NCBI GenBank assembly: GCA_022844125.1
Contig: JALHMI010000008.1
Coordinates: forward strand, 62,001-126,000
Direction: 5' to 3'
Source of the DNA: Pirellulales bacterium
Lineage (GTDB): Bacteria; Planctomycetota; Planctomycetia; Pirellulales; PALSA-1355
Length of the DNA stretch: 64,000 nt
The notes under the pieces are model-generated. The model saw only the letters and a list, made by a program, of their open reading frames with translations. It was not told where the DNA came from and did not search any database. Position 1 is the first letter of the stretch. Every line of letters begins with the position of its first letter. Position numbers and translations under genes: made by a program. Shown piece by piece: positions 48,506-52,798 of this stretch.

Positions 48506-48542
48506 AGTTTGATTGCGAGGCGAGTTTTTTTGGGAGGACAGC

Positions 48543-48941
48543 GTGGCCCGTCGTGAATCGGACTATCCCACCGAGCTGGAGCTCGAGATTCTCAAGGTCC
48601 TGTGGGCCGAGTCGCCCCTGCCCGTCCGCGAAGTGCGCGCGCGGCTGGAGCGCGACGCCGGCCGGCCGCTGGCCCACACCTCGGTGATCACGATGCTCAA
48701 CATCATGGTTCGAAAGGGTTACCTCCGCCGCCGCAAGGAAGGCAACGCGTTTTTGTTTTCGGCCAAGCTCGAGCAGCAGACGCTGCGGCGTGGCGTGTTG
48801 GGCGATCTGGCCGCACGGCTGTTTGGCGGTTCGCCCGCCGAGATGGCGTTGAACATCATCGAGTCGGCCGAGATCGACGCCGAAGAACTCGCCGAGCTTC
48901 GCAAACTGATCAACCGCAAGAGCAAGGAGCAGCAGTCATGA
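48543..48941 (+). CDS. BlaI/MecI-family transcriptional repressor
   Basis: 132 residues from GTG 48543, with GGGAGGA six bases upstream. Winged-helix fold: PTELELEILKVLWAESPLPVREVRARLE, then HTSVITMLNIMVRKGYLRRRKEGNAFLFSAKLEQQTLRRGVLGDLAARLFGG and an acidic dimerisation tail (AEIDAEELAELRKLINR). BlaI represses its own operon and is inactivated when the M56 partner senses a signal. The start codon of the M56 gene overlaps its stop (ATGA), so the pair is coupled. Two palindromes upstream fit its operator type. Confidence 0.94.
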   Translation: MARRESDYPTELELEILKVLWAESPLPVREVRARLERDAGRPLAHTSVITMLNIMVRKGYLRRRKEGNAFLFSAKLEQQTLRRGVLGDLAARLFGGSPAEMALNIIESAEIDAEELAELRKLINRKSKEQQS

Positions 48942-49864
48942 CGCGCTGGATCGCTCTCGTTGAGGCATGGGCCACAGATGGTGCGCTCGCCGAGCGGTTG
49001 TGCCTGACGCTCGCCCATTCTTTGTGGCAGTTTGCGCTATTGGCCCTGGTGGCTTGGAGCGTGAACCTGGCGGGCAATCGGTTATCGCACGCGGCCCGTT
49101 ACAACGTTTGCTTGCTGCTCCTCGCGATTGGGCTGTTGGCCGCGCCGATCACCTGGGCGTCACTGCCGGACTACACCTATTCGAATGCCGCCCAGTCGGT
49201 TGTCGTGGCTACGGATACGGTCTCAATGCCGCCTTCAAATGGGTCACCGGTAAGGGGGGCGGCCGCAGCGCCACCAGGGCAATCGGCCGAAAGTATACAT
49301 GACAGATTGCCGAAGCACGTGGATGCGATTGCTGCCGCCGGCTTGGCAACCGAAGGAGTAGCCGTGAATGCAGCGGGCGCTCGGGCGAAATTAAGCTGGC
49401 GAAGTGCGGCACGGGCCCGCGCCAGTCGGTGGATCGTGGCGCTGTACGCCGGTGGCGTGTGCCTGATGATCGCCCGGCTGCTGCGCGGGATGTGGCTCAA
49501 TCATCGCCTGGTCCGTGGTTCGCAATCGCTGGCAAGTCATCCGCTTAAGCTGGCAATGGAAACTCTGGCCGCTCGTTGGCGGCTGCGCTTGTTGCCACGC
49601 CTCGCGGTCGCCAGCGAGGTGGCGATGCCCTGCGTCATGGGCCTGGTGCGGCCGACGATCGTTTTTCCGCTGGCGGCGCTCAACAGCCTCTCGCCCGGCG
49701 AACTCGAGATGATCCTTGCCCACGAACTCGCCCACGTCCGCCGCCGCGATCTTTGGGCGCACCTGCTTCAGCGGCTGGCCGAGGCCGTGCTGTTCTTCAA
49801 TCCCGGCGCGTGGTACGTCAGCCGTCGGATCAGTTTGCTCCGGGAGTACTGTTGCGATGAATAG
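48938..49864 (+). CDS. M56 (BlaR1-type) membrane metalloprotease, ended by in-frame TAG
   Basis: 308 residues, ATG inside the BlaI stop. It has four membrane segments in the BlaR1 style (CLTLAHSLWQFALLALVAWSVNL, YNVCLLLLAIGLLAAPITW, and IVALYAGGVCLMIARLL). An exposed Ser/Pro/Ala-rich loop lies between the second and third segments. The zinc site HELAH is at 262-266 in MILAHELAHVRRRDLW, and the third ligand region is REYCCDE. Codon 309 is TAG (49862-49864), but the same frame continues open with ACDRKPAEETAVRIRYAQVL, exactly the expected next part of the M56 domain. So the protein is truncated unless the stop is read through. Confidence 0.9.
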   Translation: MTRWIALVEAWATDGALAERLCLTLAHSLWQFALLALVAWSVNLAGNRLSHAARYNVCLLLLAIGLLAAPITWASLPDYTYSNAAQSVVVATDTVSMPPSNGSPVRGAAAAPPGQSAESIHDRLPKHVDAIAAAGLATEGVAVNAAGARAKLSWRSAARARASRWIVALYAGGVCLMIARLLRGMWLNHRLVRGSQSLASHPLKLAMETLAARWRLRLLPRLAVASEVAMPCVMGLVRPTIVFPLAALNSLSPGELEMILAHELAHVRRRDLWAHLLQRLAEAVLFFNPGAWYVSRRISLLREYCCDE

Positions 49865-49897
49865 GCCTGCGATCGCAAACCTGCCGAGGAAACCGCC

Positions 49898-52798
49898 GTG
49901 CGCATCCGGTATGCCCAGGTGCTGTTGCGGCTGGTGGAATGTCAGTTCGCGCAGTCGAAGCGTGGGACGGTGGAACAACTGGCGTCGCTGGCCGCGGTCG
50001 GAGCCTCGCCGAGCCATCTGCGCCGTCGCATAGCGGTGCTGCTGGGTGAACCCCTGCGCGAACCCCTGCGTATTTCGCGAGCGGGGCTGATGACCTTGAT
50101 GTTCCTCTCCGTCGTGCTGTTTCTGGCGCCGGCGATCGTGGTTTCCAGCGGACAGGAGGCCGCGGAGAAGAAGCCCGTGAATGAGTCCGAGTCGTTGCCC
50201 GAGAAGGCAACTTCGAAGCGGACGGAGTCGCCTGTCGACGGGCGTGTCAGCAAGAAACACTCCAGTGGGGTCGAGGTAGAACTGCTCGCGATCGGCACCC
50301 GCGGCGAACCGGCGCAGCGCTGGTGGCGACCGAACGGCGCTTTGCTCGACGGCGAGCCATATCACGTGAAGGACTTTGAGCGTTACAGCTTTCCAGGTCC
50401 GCTGACGCGCGAAGTGGTGTTCACACTGGAAAACTTTCCGGAAGAAGCCGGTTGGAAATGCCGGACGCGCCCGCAAGGCGCTTCGATGGGCACTGGGGGC
50501 GTGGCTGATGCGGAAGGCAATCGACTGCGGCACCACCATGCGCTGATCTCCTCGTTGCCGGACAACGCCGCATCGTTCGGCTTTGAGGTGGGCGTCGCCG
50601 CGGGCGAATGGAAAACTGTGGCCACCTACGACCTTCCGTCCGGGAAAACATCGCGCGCAAACGGAGGGGCAGTCTTTGCGGGGCCGTACGTTTCTCTCGG
50701 AGGCCGAGCTGTGCTCACTGTCTCGCATCGATTGGAGGAACAGGTTCGATTGGTGACCGTTTACAAGGGAGGCGTTCGCAGTCCCGAATTGGCATGGGTA
50801 CAGCATGGGGCCGGCGAAAGTATACTCGTCAGTCAGTTTGAGTTGCGCTCGCAAGATCAAATCGAACGCGTCGAGTTCCAGTCGCGCCCGTATGAGTGGG
50901 TTGTGTTCGACAACCTGCCAACACAACCTGGCGATTCACATATTGATGCGGAACGCGCAGCGGCTCCAGCCGTCAAAGTCCTGGCCATCGGCTACGGCGA
51001 TGCCGTCGATAAACCCGCATCGCGTTGGTGGAATGCTGACGGCACTCCGCGCGAAGCTCCGCAAAGCCAGTTCAATGGCCAGCGCAATCCACAGATGCTT
51101 TCCGATCCCCGGGCCCGGCAGATCGTCATCGAGCTTCTTGACTATCATCCCGGCTCAGCCGTGCGCTTCGAGATCAAATCTAAGAGCGGCTGGTCACGCG
51201 GCGAACTCTCAGCAAGCGAGCTCGATGCGCCCAAGGGGCAGCCGAAGGTCCTGCACGAGGTGCACACAATTGCTGACGATGACGAGGTGTTCACCCTCCG
51301 CGTCGGCCGAGCCGACGGTGAGTGGAAGACGGTCTACTCGGGCGATGCGGGCGCCGTGGCGCAAGGGAACAAGGAACTCAAGGGCGTCGTCTTCTCCGGT
51401 GCGTTCGCCCAAGGCGCGGGCAGTGCCGTCGTCGTTTCACATAACTGGCACGGACAGAACACGCGGCTGATCGCGATCGACAACTCCGGCAAGCGGCACA
51501 CAGGCAAGTTCTCAGCGCAACTCGCCGCCGCTGAAACCGTGAACCAGACAATTTTTGAGTTCGCGGATATGAAGCCTGACGGCATCGCCGAGTTTGATAT
51601 TCAGGTGCAGGACTTTGCCTGGACCACGATCGACGATCTGCCGGCCAATCCTAAGCCTCCGGCCGACGCCAAGGCCACGATCAGCGGACGAATCAAATTG
51701 GCCGACGGCTCACCGGCGACAGAACCGGGCACGCTGTACTATCACCTCAGTCCCCGTGACAACCCGACCATCTCGGGCATCGCAGGACAAGTGGGCCGCG
51801 TAAAGGACCACTACTCATTTGAAGTCCCGGCGGGCACCCTTTGGCTTGCCCATTTCACGGAGCAGCATGCGCCCGCGGTCGTAGGCTTCTTGGAAGTCGA
51901 AACGGGCGAGCGGCTTTCGGACGTGGATTTAGTTCTTGAGCCCGGCTTGAACGCGAAAGTGAAGTTCGAAGATGAAGACCACGAGCCGATTTCTGGTGCG
52001 CAGCTAACCATGGTTCCGTGCGTCGGCGAGGATACATTCGGTCAAGCGATTGCGCACGCTGGAAGCAGTGATGGGTCCTTGGTGGTCCCCCATGTCGCGG
52101 AGAACGCGGCGTATAGGCTTATCGTGCGCGCTCCGGGGCACCAGCCCTTTCACATGACTCCTGTGCAATGGTCGGCAGCTTCCCGCTCTCCTTTTCCGCT
52201 GACCATGCGCAAATCGCGACCTGCCACCGGCAGACTCCTGCGGCCGGATGGTAGTCCCGCCGTGGATGCGATTCTGAAGACCCGGGTTGGCGTGTCTGGG
52301 CGTCACATTGTTGATGAGTTCAAACCTAAGGACGTTCAAGTCGACGTGGAAGGTCGCTATTCGATGGATGAGCTTATCGACAGGGTGCACTATCTTGTAC
52401 TGGCGGAGACCACTGACGGCGGTAGGGTCATATTGCCTCCGGTTGTGGCGGGACAGGAGGGTTTGCTGGTCAAGATTCCCGACCGGCCAGTTGTGAAGAT
52501 TCGCGTGATTGGTGATCTCAAGAAGCTCAACGACCAGCAACAGGGCGGGCCCTTACTTCGCGTGCGGCAACACTACGAGTTCAAACCTGCCGTGGGGACC
52601 GAACTGCGAGACACGATAAGTGAGGATGTTCCGGTCGAAACCACGGACGCCGGCGGGATGGCGGTCTACCGTGGACTGATCGACGCGCCAATCGAGATCA
52701 TCGCCGGTGGAAAGACTTACGAGTTCGACGGCTCGGAGAGCGAGGTCACGATCAATCTCGACGAGCCGAATAAGATTCTGTACCAGAACCGGTATTGA
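49898..52798 (+). CDS. Continuation of the M56 gene: transmembrane helix, duplicated sensor-like domains and carboxypeptidase-like domains
   Basis: 966 codons in the same frame as the M56 gene, openable from GTG 49898 with GAGGA (49886-49890) seven bases upstream. Residues 1-55 look like the missing M56 tail (RYAQVLLRLVECQFAQSKRG). A membrane helix at about 62-85 (AGLMTLMFLSVVLFLAPAIVV) follows. Two homologous repeats start at VEVELLAIGTRGEPAQRWWRPNG and VKVLAIGYGDAVDKPASRWWNADG. Carboxypeptidase-regulatory-like beta domains (ATISGRIKLADGSPATEPG, RPATGRLLRPDGSPAVDAILK) end the protein. These domains would be extracytoplasmic sensors. Expressed either by readthrough of the TAG or by reinitiation at the GTG. 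Confidence 0.8.
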   Translation: MRIRYAQVLLRLVECQFAQSKRGTVEQLASLAAVGASPSHLRRRIAVLLGEPLREPLRISRAGLMTLMFLSVVLFLAPAIVVSSGQEAAEKKPVNESESLPEKATSKRTESPVDGRVSKKHSSGVEVELLAIGTRGEPAQRWWRPNGALLDGEPYHVKDFERYSFPGPLTREVVFTLENFPEEAGWKCRTRPQGASMGTGGVADAEGNRLRHHHALISSLPDNAASFGFEVGVAAGEWKTVATYDLPSGKTSRANGGAVFAGPYVSLGGRAVLTVSHRLEEQVRLVTVYKGGVRSPELAWVQHGAGESILVSQFELRSQDQIERVEFQSRPYEWVVFDNLPTQPGDSHIDAERAAAPAVKVLAIGYGDAVDKPASRWWNADGTPREAPQSQFNGQRNPQMLSDPRARQIVIELLDYHPGSAVRFEIKSKSGWSRGELSASELDAPKGQPKVLHEVHTIADDDEVFTLRVGRADGEWKTVYSGDAGAVAQGNKELKGVVFSGAFAQGAGSAVVVSHNWHGQNTRLIAIDNSGKRHTGKFSAQLAAAETVNQTIFEFADMKPDGIAEFDIQVQDFAWTTIDDLPANPKPPADAKATISGRIKLADGSPATEPGTLYYHLSPRDNPTISGIAGQVGRVKDHYSFEVPAGTLWLAHFTEQHAPAVVGFLEVETGERLSDVDLVLEPGLNAKVKFEDEDHEPISGAQLTMVPCVGEDTFGQAIAHAGSSDGSLVVPHVAENAAYRLIVRAPGHQPFHMTPVQWSAASRSPFPLTMRKSRPATGRLLRPDGSPAVDAILKTRVGVSGRHIVDEFKPKDVQVDVEGRYSMDELIDRVHYLVLAETTDGGRVILPPVVAGQEGLLVKIPDRPVVKIRVIGDLKKLNDQQQGGPLLRVRQHYEFKPAVGTELRDTISEDVPVETTDAGGMAVYRGLIDAPIEIIAGGKTYEFDGSESEVTINLDEPNKILYQNRY

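Follow-up and report, generated by a model that had tools for sequence, protein, structure and literature searches.

Why does the frame of a BlaR1-type protease gene carry a single stop codon inside its protease domain and then stay open for almost three kilobases? The gene lies in a 64,000-nucleotide stretch of planctomycete DNA, referred to below as the window. The initial annotation of this locus offered four explanations: a fresh mutation, a sequencing error, programmed readthrough, or a protease split from a separately made sensor. Our analysis indicates that a fresh mutation fits best and that readthrough is unsupported, with error and gene splitting as minor rivals. The features on which the argument depends are the following:

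48543-48941, + strand: BlaI/MecI-like repressor (Penicillinase_R; PF03965, E 9.6e-27 on 48513-48938), with no interruption
48938-49864, + strand: N-terminal part of the M56 protease, 308 residues up to the TAG, with H262-E-x-x-H266, D271 and E303-x-x-x-D307
49862-49864, + strand: in-frame TAG (codon 309), close to the C-terminus of a predicted helix, 289-311, in which the third zinc ligand lies
49865-52798, + strand: open continuation of 977 codons plus TGA, with the remainder of the M56 domain (invariant Y325, R362-R364), the last helix and the sensor
49886-49900, + strand: GAGGA and GTG, a possible restart site (966-residue ORF)
50252-50941, + strand: sensor-like domain, copy 1
50957-51652, + strand: sensor-like domain, copy 2
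51971-52189, + strand: weak carboxypeptidase-regulatory-like stretch, below the Pfam cut-off

The M56 frame opens at ATG 48938, and the TAG ends it directly after the motif REYCCDE. Past the TAG, the unshifted frame reads ACDRKPAEETAVRIRYAQVLLRLVE... up to a TGA at 52796-52798. The open frame is as first described, but the 978 open codons claimed for it include the final stop; the sense codons number 977. Over the stretch after the TAG there is no stop in the M56 frame, against 11 to 37 in each of the other five frames. The open frame is therefore not a product of chance, an explanation also excluded by the relatives, which align across the TAG and along much of the C-terminal part. Directly upstream lies the repressor gene, whose stop codon overlaps the M56 start (ATGA). 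Its own start is a matter of choice, GTG 48543 as listed above or TTG 48513 according to the ORF caller.

Both the letters and Pfam confirm that the TAG lies inside a BlaR1-like M56 protease. With the TAG read as X, the Pfam M56 model (PF05569) scores 108.2 bits against a cut-off of 31 on residues 149-367. This match spans the TAG at residue 309, in agreement with the proposal that the frame after the TAG is the expected M56 continuation. The gluzincin motifs are present, H262/E263/H266 and E303/D307 being invariant across a 17-row alignment. For BlaR1, PMC9834060 gives H201ExxH, Asp210, E242xxxD, Tyr261 and, on a domain-swapped helix, Arg294'. Going by order and spacing, the equivalent residues in this protein are H262ExxH266, D271, E303xxxD307, Y325 and R362-R364, and we infer that the last two probably correspond to Tyr261 and Arg294'. 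A structure model was calculated from the 17-row alignment with the TAG read as Leu and the sensor part left out (mean pLDDT 76.3, pTM 0.69). Its best match is S. aureus BlaR1, with a VIA Z of 18.7 to 8exs_A (rmsd 3.6 A, 248 residues aligned) and a Foldseek E of 2.1e-6 to 8ext_A; whole-model TM-scores for BlaR1 chains are just 0.35 to 0.47, those of the four full chains lying between 0.37 and 0.47. A search of PDB sequences gave no match at E 0.01. According to the model, the protease part has a BlaR1-like fold, and the alignment and model comparison suggest that the region after the TAG corresponds to BlaR1 helices.

The C-terminal region largely agrees with what had been proposed for it. The model predicts a further helix at residues 381-410, which we take as the last membrane helix. 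The two sensor-like domains are indeed duplicated, with 65 of 232 columns identical between the copies (E 3e-17). The suggested carboxypeptidase-like domains correspond to a weak match to PF13620 (E 0.023), which at 15.5 bits falls short of the cut-off of 32.3. By Pfam, no transpeptidase family was found in the joined protein (E to 0.001) or in its C-terminal 851 residues (E to 0.1).

Relatives of the gene consistently have a sense codon where the TAG stands. Searches of the order scored the best 3 to 8 candidates per genome; in the order-wide search, with the best 5 scored, 156 of 296 genomes gave some match. The 16 close relatives, namely the fetched order matches that carry REYCCDE (L033 to L048; 35 to 41% identical in the alignment), all have a sense codon at this position (Met in 7, Leu in 5, and Trp, Val, Glu and Ile in 1 each). 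So do all 13 of the other, more distant order matches fetched (L049-L061). None of these relatives is a sister species. As judged from the alignment, the position tolerates many residues. A second, named collection, of which 80 of 104 loci were kept and some records overlap the first set, contains 26 REYCCDE-type motifs, none with a stop at the TAG codon. Relaxing the motif made 78 of the 80 loci readable, and none of these has a stop there either. The motif was unseen in the remaining two of L197-L276, L220 (the broken G102 stretch described below) and L272 (taken as the G167 gene), and likewise in 3 of the 20 loci L013-L032. One locus of the second collection, L216 (JALTNS010000183.1), is a contig labelled Rhizobiaceae, yet its M56 gene belongs to the planctomycete type seen here and is 49% identical in the matched part; the stated coverage is 1.3 and the contig is probably mis-binned.

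The initial annotation had allowed that the continuous gene might be absent from all relatives. It is present: relatives have the M56 part and the long C-terminal region in a single frame. Counting the source genome, 26 of 296 genomes contain relatives of the C-terminal region, several of which share a frame with an M56 relative. Given the relatives' sense codons and long shared frames, the fused form is therefore probably the common one and the TAG derived. The source genome is the only one of its genus among those compared, which left no sister gene for a dN/dS estimate, and in the three other genomes of the family we found distant M56 genes only (best matches 28 to 37% identical).

The lack of a second stop over 2.9 kb had been read as an argument for selection. 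This argument fails. Given the codons that actually follow the TAG, 3.1 to 3.5% of random substitutions there would create a stop, so that a second one should appear after about 29 to 33 substitutions, near 1% divergence. Because some 30 random changes would precede the next stop, the lone stop shows only that the lesion is young. Before the lesion, the frame was evidently under selection. Among columns that are invariant in the 16 other rows, this gene has changed at 0 of 16 after the TAG and at 3 of 41 before it. The ratio of conservation after to before the TAG is 0.828, compared with 0.875 (sd 0.046) in the 16 others, or about 1 sd low, and gives no clear sign of relaxed constraint. GC3 is still coding-like, 0.77 in the first 100 codons after the TAG and 0.68 farther on.

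Based on these observations, we suggest, with a probability of roughly three in four, that a nonsense codon has recently arisen, either as a fixed mutation or as a strain variant, in the protease-sensor gene of what is otherwise an ordinary BlaI/M56 sensor-protease pair. The gene is most likely a broken copy, not a new mechanism. In favour of a nonsense mutation, the TAG falls within a conserved domain that is kept in relatives. Against such a mutation, everything after the TAG looks intact and a plausible restart site follows. Translation of the M56 frame would stop after codon 308. The resulting product would keep the HExxH and E-x-x-x-D zinc motif but end before Y325 and R362-R364, the conserved Tyr and Arg, and would also be missing the dimer helices, the final membrane helix and all of the sensor. 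Because these elements follow the TAG, regulated protease activity is predicted to be lost. The truncated product would most likely be unable to cleave the BlaI-like repressor on signal, while the repressor gene itself is uninterrupted. There are ten M56 matches in the genome and only this one contains a stop; loss of one such gene may be tolerated, with nine stop-free matches remaining. We infer both the loss of function and the recency of the lesion.

Alternatively, the TAG could be an error made in base calling or assembly, or could stem from a minority variant that entered the consensus, with the gene intact in most cells. A single base would suffice for this, and the frame is otherwise uninterrupted. 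However, the contig is 367,727 bases long and the genome is rated 100% complete and 2.06% contaminated in 27 contigs, which suggests good coverage, and the other nine M56 matches carry no stop. We consider an error of this kind unlikely.

A GTG at 49898-49900, preceded by GAGGA at 49886-49890 with seven bases between, is present as reported, raising the question whether the gene is now split. In that case an N-terminal fragment would be made separately from the last helices, anchor and sensor, and the two may assemble. The predicted restart product of 966 residues begins four residues before the invariant Y325 and holds all later helices; the rest of the frame is uninterrupted, and PMC9834060 describes helices 9 and 10 of BlaR1 as domain-swapped. 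Across 760 kb of the genome, Shine-Dalgarno-like words precede 76 of 234 ORF starts, and they also occur ahead of 22 of 234 random in-gene positions. Moreover, the GAGGA is accounted for by Glu-Glu codons of the frame, the 16 close relatives have a sense codon in place of the TAG within a single frame, and none of the relatives examined is split at this place. Restart at GTG 49898 is possible and the site is plausible, if weakly so, and it could be a chance occurrence. We regard a functional split gene as improbable, more so than an error.

Other M56 genes of the order also carry lesions. In an alignment search of 396 genomes, 3 of the 150 matches listed (counted by eye) have an in-frame stop, in each case TAG; they are this gene and one gene each in the genomes G390 and G167, with the TAGs at differing places. 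The latter two (L277 2302 in G390, L278 2252 in G167) are distant M56 genes, each broken by one in-frame TAG beyond which the frame stays open for long; the TAG of L278 comes directly after HELAHVRR. In a Pfam M56 search of 296 genomes, 1 in-frame stop was found among the 150 matches listed (counted by eye), which do not include this gene; it is a TGA that interrupts an M56 gene of G149 (L156, G149:C1:1498500-1503500). In an orthologue from G197 (L034 2755, G197:C160; also L204), the sensor part is interrupted by a TAG, and a frameshift comes after it. The second M56 copy of G102 (L062 near 2085, G102:C101; also L220) has a frameshift in the protease domain, before REYCCDE. The TAGs of G167 and G390 do not appear to be conserved, with 0 stops in 20 + 8 other matches that are only 29 to 48% identical, and G368, the one other genome of G390's genus searched, gave no match at E 1e-30. 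Such scattered, unshared lesions fit gene decay or metagenome assembly errors better than a conserved mechanism.

Regulated or leaky readthrough of the UAG would give some full-length receptor. This idea agrees with the uninterrupted downstream frame, with the TAGs that three further M56 genes of the order carry, and with PMC7918605, which reports in-frame stops under purifying selection as widespread in bacteria; the same paper assumes the vast majority of such cases to be without functional recoding. In none of the relatives examined is this codon a stop (0 of the 16 close ones, 0 of 13 others and 0 of 26 motifs of the second collection), and the TAGs of G390, G167 and G197 sit elsewhere. 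The five in-frame-stop cases, which are those noticed among the listed matches of different searches, include four TAGs. This is unsurprising, as 46 to 49% of random nonsense changes in these genes give TAG, and the excess is not significant (binomial P about 0.16).

The genome itself provides no sign of a decoding apparatus. A CTA anticodon was found at none of its 46 tRNA places (Rfam search, with ARAGORN run on all 46), nor was TCA or TTA; the ARAGORN tally of 59 tRNAs reflects overlapping loci, and the absence of these three anticodons is all that we take from it. A loose CTA-tRNA pattern gave 17 matches, compared with 82 for the reversed control; 3 of the 17 lie in known tRNA genes, and two of the other 14 were run in ARAGORN and are no tRNA genes. 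Three stretches around the stop were folded as RNA, and none is more stable than its shuffles (z 0.30, 1.12 and 1.10). Stop usage was counted in 760 kb of the 6.44-Mb genome (G000 C1:1-400000 and C8:1-360000), in which a simple codon-usage caller gave 584 genes. TAG is the commonest stop (243 of 584), followed by TGA (181) and TAA (160). Coding-like run-on of at least 60 codons follows 25 of 243 TAG, 19 of 160 TAA and 7 of 181 TGA stops, so that run-on is no more frequent after TAG than after TAA, and the best 12 run-ons listed for TAG, like those for TAA, are each covered by another called gene.

Genome-wide UAG suppression is rejected, given the missing CTA tRNA and TAG as the commonest stop, and so is pyrrolysine decoding, for which the best synthetase (PylS) match in the genome reaches 27.7 bits, far below the cut-off of 178.15. 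We found no support for programmed readthrough and think it very improbable. We give equally little credence to the idea that the TAG is tolerated by design, with two proteins made via GTG 49898 or with low-level readthrough joining them. If it were so, a small or separately controlled share of the receptor would be full-length, and the TAGs scattered over other M56 genes of planctomycetes would count as additional examples. Either restart or readthrough, if true, would make this a bipartite BlaR1-type receptor.

A recent nonsense mutation thus remains the preferred reading. As a mechanism, the interrupted gene matters little. It shows cleanly what a nonsense mutation looks like while still young, namely a lone in-frame stop ahead of a long stretch of open frame, and it records that some genes for the numerous planctomycete receptors of BlaR1-like type are interrupted. 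In the literature on BlaR1, M56 and BlaI, and on readthrough and pseudogenes, we found no description of this gene.

An in-frame TAG with an open continuation is a trait shared with the bacterial in-frame-stop genes of Belinky et al. 2021 (PMC7918605). The main evidence of that study is stops common to orthologues, whereas none is shared here. The closer comparison is with the BlaR1/MecR1 and BlaI/MecI systems. Both have HExxH and E-x-x-x-D, a repressor directly upstream, and a large C-terminal region after the last helix. Unlike in BlaR1/MecR1 proper, no penicillin-binding or transpeptidase sensor was found here by Pfam, the one method applied; in its place are a duplicated domain without a Pfam match and the weak carboxypeptidase-regulatory-like stretch, and the gene is interrupted by TAG. 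The M56 gene of Adhaeretor mobilis HG15A2 (L208, NZ_CP036263.1) likewise has REYCCDE, the M56 domain and a long frame beyond it (749 codons), but it has a Leu codon at the TAG position and is uninterrupted.
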